64,000 bases of DNA from an uncultured Paracoccaceae bacterium. GTDB taxonomy: Bacteria; Pseudomonadota; Alphaproteobacteria; Rhodobacterales; Rhodobacteraceae. The notes under the pieces are model-generated. The model had not been told where the DNA came from, did no database searches, and saw only the letters and a program-made list of their open reading frames with translations. Shown piece by piece: positions 46,906 through 55,044 of this stretch. The position numbers and the translations under genes were made by a program. The DNA is taken from NCBI GenBank assembly GCA_947500775.1, contig CANMTD010000003.1:310001-374000 (forward strand), read 5' to 3'. Each line of letters begins with the position of its first letter. Position 1 is the stretch's first letter.

Positions 46906-47415
46906 TTGTCGGAAGCTTTTAAGGCGATATTCTTTTCCGGAACTCTACTGGCGCTTGGCGCATGCGTACCAACTACAAGCTACTACCTTTATAACTCTGG
47001 CGCGGATGTTTCTCGCGCTCATCGAGACGACTATGACTGCAATTTAGCGTCGGCACGAGCCGTTCCACAAGCCGTGCGAGTTGCTACAACCCCCACTTAC
47101 ACGGCACCTACATACACAAATTGCTATAAGGTCGGTTATTCTGTTCAGTGCGACACAACCGGAGGACAGACCTATGGCGGCAACACATACAGCTATGATG
47201 CCAATCAGAAACTTCGCAACGAATTCTATGCACGCTGCATGATCGATAAAGGCTGGGAGGTTTTCGAAATGCCCAATTGCGATCCAAAAAAAGTGCCCGA
47301 TGGACTTCGGACGAAATTGATGGGGCAACTGAGAGAACCCACTGAGGGCGCTTGCTATCAACGTTTGACAGAGCGGGCGGGCAATATCGTTTTCGCATCA
47401 GAGTTAAAAAAGTGA
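46906..47415 (+). CDS. Predicted lipoprotein, unknown function
   Basis: A 169-residue product read from a TTG start at 46906, chosen because GAAGGGAGAAG lies upstream and a lipoprotein signal follows directly (LLALGAC, lipid Cys at residue 20). The mature part is Tyr/Thr-rich in the middle (TYTAPTYTNCYKVGYSVQ), with several cysteines that could form disulphides. Codon use is AT-rich relative to neighbours, which suggests recent acquisition. No family recognised. Confidence 0.65.
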   Translation: MSEAFKAIFFSGTLLALGACVPTTSYYLYNSGADVSRAHRDDYDCNLASARAVPQAVRVATTPTYTAPTYTNCYKVGYSVQCDTTGGQTYGGNTYSYDANQKLRNEFYARCMIDKGWEVFEMPNCDPKKVPDGLRTKLMGQLREPTEGACYQRLTERAGNIVFASELKK

Positions 47416-47636: not shown

Positions 47637-48290
47637 CTATTTCCGCGGCTTGCCCCGCCAACTGTCCAGCCAGCCCCGGAACCGGCCGCGCGCCTTGCTG
47701 GCGCGTTCGTCCACCGCGTCCCATGTGTCTTCGGCATCCTCCAGCAGCGGGTCGATGGTGCGTTCGCGGAACTGCGCCCAAAGCCGCCACAGGAACAGGA
47801 TGAACAGCGCAAGCCCGCCCAGAATGATGATATTGGTCCAGGGGACCAGCCGCGCATCGGGGCTGTCGACCGGGCGCAGCCCGACCGCGTTGGGAAAGAT
47901 CGACAGGAATTCGTTGCGCCAGCCGTAATGGGTGATCGCGTACCATTCCGGCGCATCCTTGGTGGATTTGGCGTCATTCGCCTCGGTATAGAGGTTCGCC
48001 GTGTCGAACTTGAAATAGGGTGGCCAGCCCCAGCCGGTATCCTCGTTGCGGTAAACCATCGTCTTGCCGTTGGATTTCACCGCCTGAATGAACTGCACAT
48101 CCCGGTTCGACAAGGTTCCCGACTGATCGTCCGGCACCGACCAGAACAGGCGCGTCCAGTCGTTCAGGTCCTGGCGTTCCTCATAGGTGTTCACGATCCG
48201 CACGATGTCGCGCTGGGGCAGCGTATAATGCAGGAAGCTGAAGACGATGATCGCCACCAACAGCCGGAAGGTCCATTTCACATAGCGCAT
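47637..48290 (-). CDS. DUF1523-family membrane protein
   Basis: A 217-residue protein with an N-terminal membrane helix (about 6-22), an extracytoplasmic domain with FIQAVKSNGKTMVYRNEDTGWGWPPYFKFDTANL, a second helix (about 150-172) and a charged helical cytoplasmic tail. These features fit DUF1523, which has no known function. AAGGA precedes the ATG. Last gene of the seven-gene reverse cluster, 10 bases after the small membrane protein gene. Confidence 0.82.
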   Translation of the reverse strand: MRYVKWTFRLLVAIIVFSFLHYTLPQRDIVRIVNTYEERQDLNDWTRLFWSVPDDQSGTLSNRDVQFIQAVKSNGKTMVYRNEDTGWGWPPYFKFDTANLYTEANDAKSTKDAPEWYAITHYGWRNEFLSIFPNAVGLRPVDSPDARLVPWTNIIILGGLALFILFLWRLWAQFRERTIDPLLEDAEDTWDAVDERASKARGRFRGWLDSWRGKPRK

Positions 48291-48300
48291 CGATCGTCCT

Positions 48301-48582
48301 TCACATGAAATTCGTCATATAGATCAGCACCGTCACCGCAATGATCGGCACCACATAGACCCCAAGGATCAGCTTTTTGCGCAACGAAACGTCATAGTCC
48401 CGCATGCCCTCTTCGATATAGGTATCGCGCGCGGCGGGCTCCAGCGCGCCCTCGGCGATCTTTTCGTCGGCCCAGCCTTCCAGCTTTTCACGCCGGACGG
48501 ACCGCGAATACCACGACACCAGAAAATACAGCACGGTCAGGGCGATCAGCCCGAAAAAGCCCAGCCGGATCAGCGCAATCAT
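48301..48582 (-). CDS. Small two-helix membrane protein, unknown function
   Basis: A 93-residue product with hydrophobic helices at about 4-23 and 71-91 and a charged middle (SRSVRREKLEGWADEKIAEG). Both termini should lie on the same side of the membrane. AAGGGA precedes the ATG, which directly abuts the previous stop. It is part of the uncharacterised cluster. Confidence 0.75.
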   Translation of the reverse strand: MIALIRLGFFGLIALTVLYFLVSWYSRSVRREKLEGWADEKIAEGALEPAARDTYIEEGMRDYDVSLRKKLILGVYVVPIIAVTVLIYMTNFM

Positions 48583-49929
48583 TCAGCGTCCCTTCCTTAC
48601 CGCGCCCCAGGGGCCCACCAGATCAATCAGGTCCTCATCGGGTGGGGGCGCATCCCCCATCGCCGGTTCCGACCCGAACAGCGCCTTGCGCGCGCCTGCC
48701 TTGTCTACCTGATATTCGCGTTCCAGAAAATCGGCAACAAAGGCTTTCTTGGCCTCGGGCCATGTGGCGTACAGCCGGTAAAACAGCGCCTTGTGGCAGA
48801 TGAACAGCTGCCGTACGTCCAGCGGCGCCAGTTCGGCCAGCAGCTGGTTGACCAGATCGCGGTTCGGCCCCGCCGTTGCCCGCAGCGTGTAGAAATAGGC
48901 CGGGTGGCGCGAATTGATATGCGGCCAGCCACCGCCGCCTTCGGCCCAGCGCAGCATTTCGGCCAGCCCCTTGAACGCATCGGGCAGCGCATCGCCCAAC
49001 CGCTGCGCCAACTGGCGCAGATCGCGGCGGGTGACGTGGCCCAGATCATGGCCCAGCGTGGCGCCCGCCTCGACCAAAATGAAATCCATCTTCTGACGCA
49101 GGATCGCGGCCCCGTCTGCCCCCTTGGCCCGCACGATCGGTTCGGCCAGATGGTTCAGCTCCAGAAACCGGGCGATATAGTCGCGGTCCTTCAGCTCAAA
49201 CACATAGCGCAGGGGCAAATCGCCCAGATCGGCGCGCGCGCCCGTCGTGATCGCCGCCGGGTGTTCCACGTCGCGAAACACGTAAAGCCCGCCGAAATGT
49301 TCGGTCCAGAAATTGCCCTGCTCGGCGACGGTCCCGGTCAGGGCCACCGGGTTGCGGGTGACGTCGCCGGTTTCCCTGGCAAGGCCGATCATTTCGGCGA
49401 TCAGCACATCGTCCCACCAGCCATCCTCTTCGTCGCGGAACCGGGTGATCAGCCCGGCCAGCTCTTCGGCGTTCTTGACATGGGCGCGGGTGGTATCGGC
49501 CTCGACCACGATCCGGCGGATGTCGAATAGGCGCGCGGGGCTGGACAGCTCATAAACCGAATTGGCCAGTTCCCCCGCCACCGCGTCATGGGCGGTCAGC
49601 GCGAACAACTGCGGCTCGTTCGCCTCGATGAAATCGCGCAAAATCCCGCGCGAGGTCGAGAATTTGGCTCCCAGCAAAGGCGCGGTTTTCTGCTCCGTGG
49701 TCAGCAGGATGAACTGCCGGTTCACCCCATTGGGGTTCAGGTACAGATGATCGTCCAGCTCATCGCCGACCTCGGGCGAATATCCCGAGATATCGATATG
49801 AAAATCGCTCAGCCCCGTGGTCTTGCCCGTCAGATGGTCCAGCGCACGGTTATAGCGATCCACCAACGCCGGGCTGGAGACATGGATCAGATTGCCGAAC
49901 ATCAGGCCTTTTTCGATGAGGCGTTTCAT
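48583..49929 (-). CDS. Conserved protein of unknown function, DUF6638-like
   Basis: A 448-residue soluble protein with no signal or membrane helix. It contains a mixed alpha/beta N-terminal half and helical repeats later (QKMDFILVEAGATLGHDLGHVTRRDLRQLAQRLG). I associate it with DUF6638 from memory of alphaproteobacterial annotations, with limited certainty. HDLGH is reminiscent of a metal site but not diagnostic. The start overlaps the upstream stop by ATGA. Function unknown. Confidence 0.72.
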   Translation of the reverse strand: MKRLIEKGLMFGNLIHVSSPALVDRYNRALDHLTGKTTGLSDFHIDISGYSPEVGDELDDHLYLNPNGVNRQFILLTTEQKTAPLLGAKFSTSRGILRDFIEANEPQLFALTAHDAVAGELANSVYELSSPARLFDIRRIVVEADTTRAHVKNAEELAGLITRFRDEEDGWWDDVLIAEMIGLARETGDVTRNPVALTGTVAEQGNFWTEHFGGLYVFRDVEHPAAITTGARADLGDLPLRYVFELKDRDYIARFLELNHLAEPIVRAKGADGAAILRQKMDFILVEAGATLGHDLGHVTRRDLRQLAQRLGDALPDAFKGLAEMLRWAEGGGGWPHINSRHPAYFYTLRATAGPNRDLVNQLLAELAPLDVRQLFICHKALFYRLYATWPEAKKAFVADFLEREYQVDKAGARKALFGSEPAMGDAPPPDEDLIDLVGPWGAVRKGR

Positions 49930-50699
49930 TGCATTGGCTTTCGAAAAAATAGTGGCATCTGAGGCGGTTGAATCTCTCCCACAAGTTCCTCCGGCAGCCA
50001 GTATTCTCTCATGCGGGCAACTCTGTCGGGGAAATTGGGCACGACGATCTTTTCATAGGCATCCAGATGCACGTCCTTCATCCAATCACTTGCCTTGAAA
50101 TTCCAATCCATCCAGTGATCCAACATCTCAGCTTTCTCTTCGCAAGTACGAAGTGAAGCTCCATGTCGATTCAGTCTGCCAATGAACATCACTTCTTCAC
50201 CCATCGGATAGTAAGAGTTCGAGGTCATATCATGCAGATACATGTTGCAATTCGCATGATCTGGAACGTGCGAGATATTCTTCCTTGCAGCTTTAAAACT
50301 GTAGTGATTTGCAGCCTCGTGCCGAACGTTGCGCGCGATTTTGTAACCTTTAAGAAGCTCAAGGCCCGCAAATGTACTCTTTGCTTGCTCAGCGACAGAT
50401 ATGACGGTCGCATCTATTTTCTTAGATCCCTCTGCTAGCGGGAGAATGCACTCCGAAATCTCGAACAATTTCGCTGACCAAGTTCGCAATACGATGTGAC
50501 GTTGAGTGGCTGTCGCCACATCGATGTCTTCTTCCCCATAGGGCAGGTGAGCTAACTGCAAATATATTCTCTGAAGAATATTCGCCTCCGTCGCCGCATA
50601 GTGCAGTAATGACAGGAGAGCCAATTGATCTTCCGAAAGCACAGAAAGCTCTTTCCAAGACAGCTTCAGCACCGCCAATTTTTGAAGGGCTCTGTTCAC
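49926..50699 (-). CDS. Unknown protein with atypical composition inside the AAA+ cluster
   Basis: Not recognised. The helical N-terminal half contains repeated leucines, and the C-terminal half has NCNMYLHDMTSNSYYPMGEEVMF. Base composition is clearly more AT-rich than both neighbours. The GTG at 50699 is chosen because the AT-rich coding begins right after the AAA+ stop; an ATG at 50723 would overlap the AAA+ gene. Neither has a good ribosome site, so translation may depend on coupling. It ends in a 4-base overlap with the DUF6638-like gene, so it is fully embedded in the operon. Confidence 0.68.
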   Translation of the reverse strand: MNRALQKLAVLKLSWKELSVLSEDQLALLSLLHYAATEANILQRIYLQLAHLPYGEEDIDVATATQRHIVLRTWSAKLFEISECILPLAEGSKKIDATVISVAEQAKSTFAGLELLKGYKIARNVRHEAANHYSFKAARKNISHVPDHANCNMYLHDMTSNSYYPMGEEVMFIGRLNRHGASLRTCEEKAEMLDHWMDWNFKASDWMKDVHLDAYEKIVVPNFPDRVARMREYWLPEELVGEIQPPQMPLFFRKPMQ

Positions 50700-50703
50700 C
50701 GGA

Positions 50704-52638
50704 CTACTGCTTCCCCTCCGCATACCTTCTGCGCGCCTCTTCCATCCGGCCCATCTCGCGCACCGCATTCTCAATCGCCACCTCGTCGGACTTATCGGCA
50801 TAGCGGAACTCGGAATCCGCGTAGCGGTTGATTTCCTGAATGACCATGTCGACCGTGATCGGCTGCGTCATCTCGCGGATCATGCCCAGCTTTTCATCGT
50901 ATCCTTTGAACAGGAACAACTCGGGCTCTTCCATCCACTCGTCGGGCAGTTCGAAATCCATCGCCCGCACCTTGACCGCATCGGTGATATTCTTGATCGC
51001 GCGGCCGGTGAAACGGTGGTCCGCCTCCTGAATGGCTTTCAGATAGCTGCCCAGTTTGGCGATGGTGTCCAGCCGCCCGATCTGCGCCTCGACCTTCTCC
51101 CAGACCGCCAGCAACCCCTTTTCCTGCGGGCGGCCGTGGCCTTCGAACGACGCGGCGACGGCCTTTTTGATCTGCTGTGCGGCAAACAGCTCATGATCGC
51201 CCACGGGGATATCGTGGTTCTTGCCCATCAGCAGATGCAGGATGTCGATGTAATCCGCGCGCGTCTGCGGCCCGTCGACCAGAAACCGCGCGCCCGCCCG
51301 TTGGCGCAGGGCGTCGTCGACATTCTCGGGGAAGTTCGAGAACATGCCAAAGGTGCAGTTCCCACGCACCACGGTGTTGGCGCCGGCAAAGGCCTCCATG
51401 AACACCGCCGTCACCTCTTGCTGGCCCGCGCTGGATTGCCGGTCGCCGCGTTTGCCCGCGATCTGGTCGATGTCGTCGATGGTGCCAAAGCCGATCACAT
51501 TGGGGTCCAGCACATTTTGCACAAACGCCTTGGCGTTCTGCCCCGATTTCCCCTGATAGCTGTCGATTTGATCGATGCTGAAATTCTGGTACCGGAAGGG
51601 ATAGCCCGCGGTCTGGCAGTAGTCATTCATCAACCCCGCCATCATCTGGATCAGCGTGGTTTTGCCCGTGCCCGGCGCGCCGTCGCCCATGAAGGTAAAG
51701 ATGAACCCGCCCATTTCGGCGAAGGGATTCAGCCGCCGGTCGAAATCATAGGCCATCAGCATCTTGGCCAGCCTCAAAGCCTGATATTTGGCGATATGGT
51801 TGCCCACCACCTCGTCCGGCTTCTTGAACGTCATGGTCAGGGTGCTGCCCTTGCCGCGACGGGCGGGGGTGAACCCCTGAATGGTGAAATCATCGGCCTC
51901 GACCCGGTAACTGGCCCCGGCGAACCCGTCCAGCCGCGGGGCGGTCTGGGCGCGCAGCCCCAGTTTTTCCATCAACTGTTCGGCATAGGCCGCGACGGTG
52001 GCAACCATGCGCGCCTCGTCGCTGGCAAAGGCGGCCAGATCCTGATCCAGCTCCCACAAACAGCCATGCAGGGCCAGTTGCGCATTGTCGGTCAAAATTT
52101 CCTCGACCCCGCCCAGTTCCACCGTCACCTCGCTCAGATGCGGGGCCAGCAGAAAGGCGGTCGCATTGGCAAACCCGGCCATCGTCACCAAAGCCTCGGC
52201 CGCCAGCAGCTCGGAGAACTCGGTCTTGCGGGCCTCGGGCAGGTTCCCGGCCAGATTGACCTTTTTCAACTCGGCCAGCCCGGTCTGTTCGGAAAACCCC
52301 TCGCCCAGCGCCAGCCCGATCGACAGCGCCCGGCGCAGCGCCTGCAAGGTGGTGGCCTGCAGGGGCGACACCAGCGGATCATCGCCATCCGCCGCCTCGA
52401 TCCGTTCGATCAGCCGCACGCCTTCAGGCCGCGCGGTGCTGCGCGTCACCAACCCCGGCGTGGTCGACCGAAACCGCCGCCGGGTCCCCAATCCCGCAGA
52501 GCGTTCCGCCACCACCGGCTCCTTGCCCCTGGCGATGCGCGGCGTGTGATCCACGCCCTCCAGCATCGCCGCGGCGGCGGGATAATGTTTGCGGATATCA
52601 TCTTCCCGCAGCTCCATTGCATCAGTGGGAATACTCAC
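50704..52638 (-). CDS. AAA+ ATPase of unknown role
   Basis: A 644-residue cytoplasmic ATPase. The first 300 residues are helical with no known domain. The AAA+ module follows: Walker A GAPGTGKT at 320-327, Walker B ending in Asp388-Asp389 (GFGTIDD), a sensor-1 Asn at about 435 (FSNFPENVDDAL) and an arginine-finger-type Arg at about 445-447, then a helical lid. The layout is close to the classic FtsH/Cdc48-like clade. Such proteins remodel protein complexes or membranes. It sits centrally in the cluster, with coiled-coil and unknown proteins upstream and membrane proteins downstream. Confidence 0.88.
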   Translation of the reverse strand: MSIPTDAMELREDDIRKHYPAAAAMLEGVDHTPRIARGKEPVVAERSAGLGTRRRFRSTTPGLVTRSTARPEGVRLIERIEAADGDDPLVSPLQATTLQALRRALSIGLALGEGFSEQTGLAELKKVNLAGNLPEARKTEFSELLAAEALVTMAGFANATAFLLAPHLSEVTVELGGVEEILTDNAQLALHGCLWELDQDLAAFASDEARMVATVAAYAEQLMEKLGLRAQTAPRLDGFAGASYRVEADDFTIQGFTPARRGKGSTLTMTFKKPDEVVGNHIAKYQALRLAKMLMAYDFDRRLNPFAEMGGFIFTFMGDGAPGTGKTTLIQMMAGLMNDYCQTAGYPFRYQNFSIDQIDSYQGKSGQNAKAFVQNVLDPNVIGFGTIDDIDQIAGKRGDRQSSAGQQEVTAVFMEAFAGANTVVRGNCTFGMFSNFPENVDDALRQRAGARFLVDGPQTRADYIDILHLLMGKNHDIPVGDHELFAAQQIKKAVAASFEGHGRPQEKGLLAVWEKVEAQIGRLDTIAKLGSYLKAIQEADHRFTGRAIKNITDAVKVRAMDFELPDEWMEEPELFLFKGYDEKLGMIREMTQPITVDMVIQEINRYADSEFRYADKSDEVAIENAVREMGRMEEARRRYAEGKQ

Positions 52639-52700
52639 ACGACCCTCGCTTCTTTTTGGTCAAAATACTCAAAATCCAGCCCTCTCATCCCGCGCCCCGC

Positions 52701-53843
52701 TCAACGATAGCTCAGAACGCGGCCACCGGGGCTGACGACAAACTTGCGCACATCGTGAAACCCCGGCGGGTTCTGCTCGGCCAGCACCTGATAGGGGCGC
52801 TGCGGCAGGATGATCGCGCGCGTGGTATGGGTGGCGCCGGTATCGACGCCCCGGCCCGAAAACGGGTCCAGCGCAAAAACCTCGCGCTCGACCGTGCCGA
52901 ACCAGCCCTTGCGCTCTTCGATCACCCGTTCGCTTTCCAGTTCTTCGACCGTCCAGGCCAGCGTCCAATCCTCGCCTGCGGGTGCGCGGGCCTGTTCCAG
53001 AACCGACCGGATCGGGCCCGATTGCCGGGTGAAGGCCGAGGAATACATCGGCCCCACGTGAAACCGGCGGAACCGTTTGGGATGCAGATCGTCGAAATCC
53101 GTGTCGAACCCCTTGGCGATGGTCAACAGTTTCAGCCCGCCCACCGATTGCGCCATCAGATGGCGCTGTGCCTCGGGCCAGCGATGCTGGTCGCGCGGCA
53201 ACGCCTCGCGCCCGGTATCCTCCAGCTCCATCAGATAGATCACCGGCAGGTTGATCTGGCTGTCATAGACGGCCCAGTGCAACAGATAGCGACGGCGCGG
53301 ATCGCGGCGTTCATCGCCATTGTTGCCCAGCCAGATCGCCTCGGGATCGTTCTGCGCCCAGAACAGCGTGCCCTTTTGCAGCGCCTCATAGTACAGCCGC
53401 TGCGACAGCGCGAATTGCAGCTTGGTCGGGATCGCCAGATCGCCGACAATCGTCTGCACCATCTGGTTTTTCAACGCCTCCACCGCAGGCATGTTGCGCA
53501 AATGGCGTTCGGCCTGCTGCGCGTCATTGGCCATGGTCAGCAGTTCGGAATAGACCGGAAAGCCGCTTTCATGCCGGTCGATCATCAACGAGCCGAAAAA
53601 CTGCCCCGTGTCCCGCCCGGTCATCAGGTATTTGTTGCCAAGCGCCTGAAAGCTATGGCTGATCCGCTGGATATAAGCCGACAGGATATTGACGTCGGCC
53701 TTCGACAACCGCGCCTCGGCCTGCATGGTGCCCGCCACCCGTGCCAGATGTTCGGTGATCCGCTCGAACTTGCGGAAATAGCGCCGGGCGGCCAGCGTGT
53801 CGGTCAGGCCGGCGTGGTCGCGGGTGAGGTTGGTCTCAGTCAT
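52701..53843 (-). CDS. Uncharacterised cluster protein
   Basis: A 380-residue soluble protein starting at 53843 after GGGAG. The first 150 residues are helical (ARRYFRKFERITEHLARVAG); the middle is mixed alpha/beta (LLHWAVYDSQINLPVIYLMELED), and the end is beta-rich (FHDVRKFVVSPGGRVLSYR). I recognise no family. It lies between the coiled-coil gene and the AAA+ gene on one strand and is a likely partner or substrate of the ATPase (inference). Confidence 0.78.
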   Translation of the reverse strand: MTETNLTRDHAGLTDTLAARRYFRKFERITEHLARVAGTMQAEARLSKADVNILSAYIQRISHSFQALGNKYLMTGRDTGQFFGSLMIDRHESGFPVYSELLTMANDAQQAERHLRNMPAVEALKNQMVQTIVGDLAIPTKLQFALSQRLYYEALQKGTLFWAQNDPEAIWLGNNGDERRDPRRRYLLHWAVYDSQINLPVIYLMELEDTGREALPRDQHRWPEAQRHLMAQSVGGLKLLTIAKGFDTDFDDLHPKRFRRFHVGPMYSSAFTRQSGPIRSVLEQARAPAGEDWTLAWTVEELESERVIEERKGWFGTVEREVFALDPFSGRGVDTGATHTTRAIILPQRPYQVLAEQNPPGFHDVRKFVVSPGGRVLSYR

Positions 53844-53964
53844 TTCGCTCTCCCACCGCCTCTGTTCTGCGCCCCCCCCGGCGGACAATCAGACCCAAAA
53901 AGCGACCCTGCCCATGTGACGTCGAAGACTTGGACAAACGTCATGGCCGGGCCCTTCAGTGCCC

Positions 53965-55044
53965 TCATTGGGATCCATACAGGTTCTTGTCATGCTTCTC
54001 GACGATCTTCTGGAATCGGCGGGCGAAACGTTCGTCGGATTTCGCCTTCTGCTCCAGCACCTTGCGGGCGAATACCATGTGATCCTCATGCGCCTCCATC
54101 ATGTCGGCCATCCGTTTGTTGGTGGCGGCCCCGATCCCGGCCATGGCGGCCTGCGCCTCTTGGTCGGTTTTCACGCCGATCTCGTTGATGCGGTGGGCCA
54201 CATCCTGTTGCTGGGCGGTTTTCAGCGATTTGGTCAGCGCGTCATACAGCACGACCCGCTGCTTGGTGTCCGTCTGCAGCTTGTTGATCAGAACCATCTG
54301 CGTCGCCGCCTGGTTCTGCAGGCTGTCGACCCAGGTCTTGCCCTTTTCGATGTAACGTTCCAGCGTCTGGGATTTCGCCAGTTTGACCTGTTCGTTCTGC
54401 ACCATTTCATTATAGCGCGCGTTCAGCTCGGCCAGTTCGGTTTCCAGCTTGGTGCGCGCGGCGGCGTCCTGTTCGACCGAGATTTTGTTTTCCAACTCGA
54501 TGATCTTGGGGTCCATCCCCTGAATATCGACCCGCAGGGCTTCCAGATCGCCCACGGTCACTTCGCGTTCGTCCAGCGTGCCGGACAGGTTCGCCTCGAC
54601 CTTTTCCTTTTGCTGGTCCAGCATTTCAAGCTGGCCTTCCAGCAGTTTCACGATCATGTCGGATTTGCCGATCAGGTCCTGCAGCTTGTCGTCGATGCTG
54701 GCGGTGCGCATGCGTTCCTGACGCATGGATTCCGATTTGCCACGGGCAAAGATACCGACAAAGCTTTCCCAGCCGGTCTTGTTCCGCATTTCATCGAAAT
54801 CTTTGGAAAAACCGGCGGTTACGTCGTCCAGCCCCATGATCAGTTCGGCGATATTGGCGTTCATCAGCTCGGTATGCGCATGCACATCGTCCAGCGTGGC
54901 GTTTTCGATATCCAGCGTGATATCGCTGCCTGCCTCCATCTTGGAGCGCGCGGTTTCAATGCGGCTGGTCAATTCGGAAATCTTGGATTGTGCTTTGGCA
55001 ACCTCATCCTGGCTTTTGCGGATCTGAGCGTCAAAATCGGCCAT
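53965..55044 (-). CDS. Long coiled-coil protein, unknown function
   Basis: A 359-residue protein dominated by heptad-like helices (about 1-55 and 130-345), rich in Glu, Lys, Gln and Leu, with no signal or membrane segment. The centre (about 90-105, TGWESFVGIFARGKS) is the only non-coil part. It bears a general resemblance to TelA-like or PspA-like coiled-coil proteins, but no motif proves either. AAGGAG precedes the ATG. First gene of the cluster. Confidence 0.82.
   Translation of the reverse strand: MADFDAQIRKSQDEVAKAQSKISELTSRIETARSKMEAGSDITLDIENATLDDVHAHTELMNANIAELIMGLDDVTAGFSKDFDEMRNKTGWESFVGIFARGKSESMRQERMRTASIDDKLQDLIGKSDMIVKLLEGQLEMLDQQKEKVEANLSGTLDEREVTVGDLEALRVDIQGMDPKIIELENKISVEQDAAARTKLETELAELNARYNEMVQNEQVKLAKSQTLERYIEKGKTWVDSLQNQAATQMVLINKLQTDTKQRVVLYDALTKSLKTAQQQDVAHRINEIGVKTDQEAQAAMAGIGAATNKRMADMMEAHEDHMVFARKVLEQKAKSDERFARRFQKIVEKHDKNLYGSQ

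Follow-up and report, generated by a model that had tools for sequence, protein, structure and literature searches.

The operon described here lies in the window (the whole 64,000-nucleotide stretch of DNA that was analysed, from an uncultured Paracoccaceae bacterium), where seven ORFs follow one another on the minus strand, all of them present in the order reported by an earlier note made from the sequence. Listed from the upstream end, the genes and the two intervals that matter for what follows are:

53965..55044, minus strand: cc, a coiled-coil protein of 359 aa, core member (homologues in Rhodobacterales, Rhizobiaceae and Vibrio)
53844..53964, no strand: cc-unk6 gap, the second hypervariable slot of the operon, empty in the window (locus comparison)
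52701..53843, minus strand: unk6, 380 aa, core member, with a helical N-terminal part and a beta-rich C-terminal part (AlphaFold model, pLDDT 87)
50704..52638, minus strand: AAA, a classical AAA ATPase of 644 aa, core member (Pfam and motif alignment)
49926..50703, no strand: AAA-DUF6638 hypervariable cargo slot (locus comparison)
49926..50699, minus strand: low-GC (47%) cargo gene, candidate HEPN-type RNase (R-x5-H in nine relatives), with a 4-bp overlap between its stop and the start of DUF6638
48583..49929, minus strand: DUF6638 protein, 448 aa, core member (PF20343; AlphaFold model, pLDDT 84)
48301..48582, minus strand: TM2, 93 aa, two predicted membrane helices, Rhodobacterales-type partner (locus comparison)
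47637..48290, minus strand: DUF1523 membrane protein, 217 aa (PF07509), in place of which Rhizobiaceae have DUF2333

The two family names that had been proposed were borne out by full-length Pfam matches, DUF6638 to PF20343 (positions 1-439 of 439, E = 3.2e-226) and DUF1523 to PF07509 (positions 1-176 of 176, E = 6e-71), and no Pfam family was found above cut-off for cc, unk6, TM2 or the low-GC protein. Two gene starts have been revised: homologues place that of unk6 at 53843, versus a listed TTG at 53888, and in the low-GC ORF the first ATG falls within the AAA gene, the likely start being the GTG at 50697-50699, 4 bp past the AAA stop. Scans for sigma-70 promoters and terminators gave no clear excess over shuffled sequence. 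On the plus strand, an ORF of low GC (~47%) with a lipoprotein-like start (46906-47415) converges with the 3' end of the operon.

The core of this operon is inherited as one unit. Of 149 Rhodobacterales genomes, 89 have DUF6638 and, when genome lists are compared, exactly the same 89 have cc, with a distribution of the core that is largely coherent within genera apart from sporadic losses. The arrangement cc-unk6-AAA-DUF6638-TM2-DUF1523 is found in full and in the same order in 93 of 101 fetched loci. Of the others, five are truncated at contig ends, one has a TM2 that has diverged yet is present (L034), and one, from a different alphaproteobacterial family, is without TM2 (L148); in Roseovarius sp. 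ZX-A-9 (L111) the operon is split at the slot, with DUF6638 on a separate contig. The unit also decays together, since in genome G123, one of the 89, each of the genes cc, unk6, AAA and DUF6638 is reduced to fragments, still in the original order. The earlier claim that seven genes belong together holds for six of them, and at depth for four, but the low-GC gene is variable cargo. The ATPase and cc are not routinely found apart from their partners, the loosened cases being L111 and some divergent rhizobial cc genes accompanied by DUF2333 alone.

How far does this core extend? An apparent confinement of the system to Rhodobacteraceae plus one genome is a sampling effect, and both plasmid records and a phylum scan extend its range. 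On plasmids, cc was found in Sinorhizobium, Shinella, Rhizobium and Vibrio, with AAA on 10 of the same 11 records, the eleventh (R. leguminosarum pSK03) carrying a divergent cc (about 25% identity) that adjoins DUF2333 only. The phylum scan was positive for 30 of 398 genomes, many of them from one alphaproteobacterial family, with loci of rhizobial arrangement. Gene order in Sinorhizobium and Shinella is cc-unk6-AAA-DUF6638-DUF2333, and Vibrio megaplasmids have cc-unk6-AAA-DUF6638 alone. Since the membrane partner of rhizobia is DUF2333 and Vibrio has none, it is the set of four cytosolic genes that is constant, and the membrane partner that varies between lineages. The description of the whole set as envelope-associated is accordingly weakly supported, by the lineage-specific partners (TM2 and DUF1523, or DUF2333), but not by the four core proteins, which have no predicted membrane helix. 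One genome outside the class (G602, locus L199) has a full Rhodobacterales-type operon without cargo, which suggests a recent horizontal transfer of the core, TM2 being 35% and the other proteins 54-75% identical to their counterparts, with cc at 75% to the nearest query. In two Vibrio megaplasmids of 0.88-0.93 Mb, from oyster- or clam-associated strains (L180 and L184), mfd is the next gene downstream of the four-gene core. The divergent rhizobial cc proteins, which share about 22-33% identity with cc of intact operons, keep DUF2333 where AAA, unk6 and DUF6638 are missing, and cc seems to diverge fast where the other core genes are absent. The order in L182 and L209-L212, without AAA, unk6 and DUF6638, is thymidine kinase, divergent cc, DUF2333.

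Within this frame, which many marine bacteria share nearly unaltered, the interval between AAA and DUF6638 is hypervariable. Its median length is 704 bp, with more than 250 bp in 82 of 99 loci, whereas the next gaps measure 6 and 16 bp, and the ORFs that it holds are mostly unrelated from locus to locus. Turnover is seen even between close relatives, as a slot homologue is common to 4 of 49 pairs of loci whose AAA proteins are 95-99% identical. Among 66 pairs with AAA 93-99% identical (drawn from 24 loci, so that the same locus enters several pairs and these are not independent), cc has a median blastn coverage of 1.00, and unk6 and DUF6638 of 0.99 each, versus 0.00 for each of the AAA-DUF6638 and cc-unk6 slots; the 2 kb downstream of the operon score 0.91, and the 2 kb upstream are fairly variable (0.69). 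Slot ORFs have an average GC of 51%, about 8.6 points under AAA and DUF6638, and a membrane segment is predicted for 65 of 100 of them, versus 29 of 108 flanking ORFs. Since about 19 loci are without a recognisable cargo ORF, occupancy of the slot is not obligatory. No integrase was seen in the slots, and the sole IS element was in one Sinorhizobium slot. The cc-unk6 gap (e.g. L117:8457-8792, L137:8048-8559 and L145:8150-8431) is a second hypervariable slot, which holds mostly short proteins that belong to no known family and are predicted to lie in the membrane (45 of 57 ORFs have a predicted membrane segment).

What is exchanged was sampled by annotating 54 slot proteins of at least 140 aa with Pfam and PADLOC, whose category lists overlap. 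Matches include putAbiC (4), Mrr (2), AbiJ_NTD4 (1), DUF2971 (2), DUF4145 (2), HATPase (2), AbiP (3) and type IV restriction (2), together with the candidate defence families PDC-S02, PDC-S31 and PDC-S14, and many slot proteins are small membrane proteins without defence annotation. For putAbiC (PF16872), the best of the four Pfam members has an E-value of 3e-19, and iterative profiles find putAbiC-like proteins in 15 loci. Flanking control ORFs encode hydrolases, transporters, peptidases and other metabolic proteins, with scattered PADLOC matches, so that the contrast with the slots is strong, but not exhaustive since the control listing consists of the 25 commonest Pfam families.

The downstream border of the main slot is as constant as its content is not. 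Where the slot is occupied, its last gene and the start of DUF6638 overlap by exactly 4 bp in 53 of 80 loci, with cargo genes that are mostly unrelated, and the same exact overlap occurs at 17 of 89 DUF6638-TM2 junctions and 1 of 97 unk6-AAA junctions. In the cargo-free loci L198 and L199, it is the AAA stop itself that overlaps the DUF6638 start. The simplest reading of this exact spacing is that translation of DUF6638 would be coupled to the gene that precedes it, whichever that is, and that exchange would leave the coupling intact. Our search of the open-access literature found no description of the slot, its host operon, the breadth of exchange or the fixed junction.

The ATPase offers a clue as to what the core may do. 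Its AAA domain matches PF00004 (E = 9e-12, 46 bits versus a gathering cut-off of 21.2) and contains a Walker A motif (GDGAPGTGKT), a pore loop (SYQGKSG), a Walker B motif (IDDID) and an ALRQR segment, GDGxPGTGKT and IDDID being invariant in Rhodobacterales, rhizobial and Vibrio homologues. The Walker motifs had been described as intact, which is correct for Walker A but not for Walker B, where an Asp, Asp389 in this protein, takes the place of the catalytic Glu in all these homologues. Both the pore-loop aromatic residue and the second-region-of-homology arginines are present, as Y361 and R445/R447; these residues line up with those of i-AAA, katanin and fidgetin-like 1, and they and the ALRQR segment do not vary from Rhodobacterales to Vibrio, so that a threading motor is the natural inference from these motifs. 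AAA resembles the i-AAA/FtsH group and the katanin and fidgetin-like group in Walker A, in the pore-loop aromatic and in the overall AAA domain, and the EALRRR of katanin resembles its ALRQR segment. It differs from classical threading ATPases in the Walker B substitution, in an N-terminal region of ~270 residues without known family, and in its new gene partners. No paralogue was found in the same genome at E<=1e-5.

For unk6 and DUF6638, the AlphaFold models are confident, and Foldseek found no significant match to solved structures for either. Residues 175-342 of the unk6 model give weak but consistent VIA-align matches to T-fold-like proteins (dihydroneopterin aldolase and urate oxidase, Z about 4-4.7), a likeness that is a lead only, and the structural matches listed for DUF6638 are limited to short helical stretches. 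We found no open-access paper naming DUF6638, and DUF1523 is mentioned in tables only in the open-access literature found.

We favour, with moderate confidence, a reading in two layers: the conserved genes would encode a remodelling machine, and their operon would also serve as a dock at which cargo, enriched in anti-phage types, is exchanged. On the side of the machine, cc, unk6, AAA and DUF6638 would work together in the cytoplasm, and in Rhodobacterales TM2 and DUF1523 would tie them to the inner membrane. AAA would most likely form a ring and pull a protein client through its pore via the Tyr361 loop, its ATP turnover possibly slowed by the Walker B Asp, and the likeliest client or scaffold would be an assembly of the coiled-coil protein, for which unk6 and DUF6638 might be adaptors. 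On the side of the dock, unrelated AT-rich genes, many of anti-phage type, are exchanged at the AAA-DUF6638 and cc-unk6 junctions, and homologous recombination between the conserved genes on either side is the probable route. Since the last cargo gene usually overlaps DUF6638 by 4 bp, its expression would be expected to take place within the operon, with DUF6638 translationally coupled to its upstream neighbour. The low-GC gene of the window is a passenger of this kind, and we infer that cargo functions independently of the core.

The implications are several: (i) a strictly co-inherited ATPase operon that spans Rhodobacterales, Rhizobiaceae and Vibrio is now testable as one unit, (ii) two of its proteins combine confident models with no significant solved-structure match, (iii) the slot amounts to a collection of exchangeable genes that only has to be read, and AAA-DUF6638 intervals from more genomes should bring new defence genes to light and (iv) the fixed 4-bp junction makes the question of coupling directly testable.

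The alternative that survives best, although we consider it unlikely, is that the operon in its entirety is a single modular defence system, in which the conserved core would sense attack and the slot would supply interchangeable effectors (AbiC-like membrane proteins, HEPN RNases and nucleases). Many slot genes are indeed of defence type, cargo is present in most loci and is bound to the operon by a shared strand and the fixed junction, and rapid exchange is typical of effectors. However, Mrr, AbiJ and AbiC-type proteins can act alone, and a core that is coherent within genera with sporadic losses is unlike a highly mobile defence system. Lamassu and CBASS also have a constant core beside variable effectors and provide a works-like comparison, but no PADLOC model fits the present core (there are a weak TRIP13-like match for AAA and low-scoring coiled-coil matches only), and empty slots are common, so that the core must function without cargo.

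The principle of embedding has precedent in the defence genes found within type I restriction-modification operons, such as tgvAB on VPI-2 of V. cholerae (PMC11411939) and DarTG2 in EPEC (PMC12255303), where anti-phage-type genes likewise sit between the genes of another operon. In contrast to these, the host operon here is not a known defence system, its cargo differs in nearly every species, and the overlap of that cargo with DUF6638 is fixed at 4 bp. On genomic islands, e.g. in Pseudomonas (PMC12629846), defence islands and hotspots likewise replace their defence genes quickly at one constant site, but the slot consists of one to a few genes and lies within a conserved operon, flanked by two partners that are inherited together. 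Were the modular immune reading true after all, against our expectation, Alphaproteobacteria would have a modular immune system so far unrecognised, with the core as the engine that both senses and triggers. Species would retain this engine and exchange the effector, and synthesis of the swapped effectors would be translationally coupled to DUF6638.

More doubtful is a second alternative, which would make the core a TelA-type envelope-stress module, with cc as a remote TelA relative, the operon as a cousin of TerC-XpaC-TelA, and the ATPase as remodeller of a TelA-like scaffold at the membrane. The cc protein is well conserved (83% mean column identity across diverse Rhodobacterales) and has no match in phage records. 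When its profile is aligned with diverse TelA by hhalign, the score is above those of all 120 + 200 block-shuffled controls and the alignment is collinear over about 300 columns, but the probability is only 15-27%, with no gain from the addition of diverse cc sequences, and chance similarity is common among coiled coils. Membership of the TelA family (PF05816) is not supported, TelA not being among the Pfam matches listed at E<=10 for 13 cc members, and the link is suggestive only. The same genome has a canonical TelA in a Ter-type operon, which speaks for the module, and the two loci are alike in having a cytosolic coiled-coil protein near membrane proteins, but the TelA locus has no counterpart of AAA, unk6 or DUF6638. 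That locus (L178; G000:C2, about 589700-595000) reads TerC, XpaC, TelA, lipoprotein and SPFH-like protein, names that come from sequence reading.

Our preferred reading, a remodelling machine with a cargo dock, leaves the low-GC gene outside the machine. It belongs to a family of at least nine, and R126 and H132 (R-x5-H) are invariant in nine relatives, which fits the R-x4-6-H pattern and makes the protein a candidate HEPN RNase; it matched no Pfam family, and no match was found in phage records or on plasmids. The earlier proposal that all seven genes, this one included, form one envelope machine draws on their common strand and short gaps, but is most improbable, since the low-GC family occurs in a minority of loci and is replaced elsewhere by an unrelated gene or by nothing, and its GC is 47% versus 63% for AAA and DUF6638. 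Among other cargo, assignment of the L091 gene to GIY-YIG was dropped, as it came from a motif reading and Pfam gave no confirmation. In Rhizobiaceae, the AAA-DUF6638 slot (L197, L202-L205, L208; L179:12399-12803) repeatedly holds a small endonuclease gene with repeat-like flanks, which we take from its sequence to be of DUF559 type. In S. meliloti Ak57, the slot gene is annotated as 'endonuclease domain-containing protein' and is adjoined by an IS element, and it has look-alikes in six further loci.
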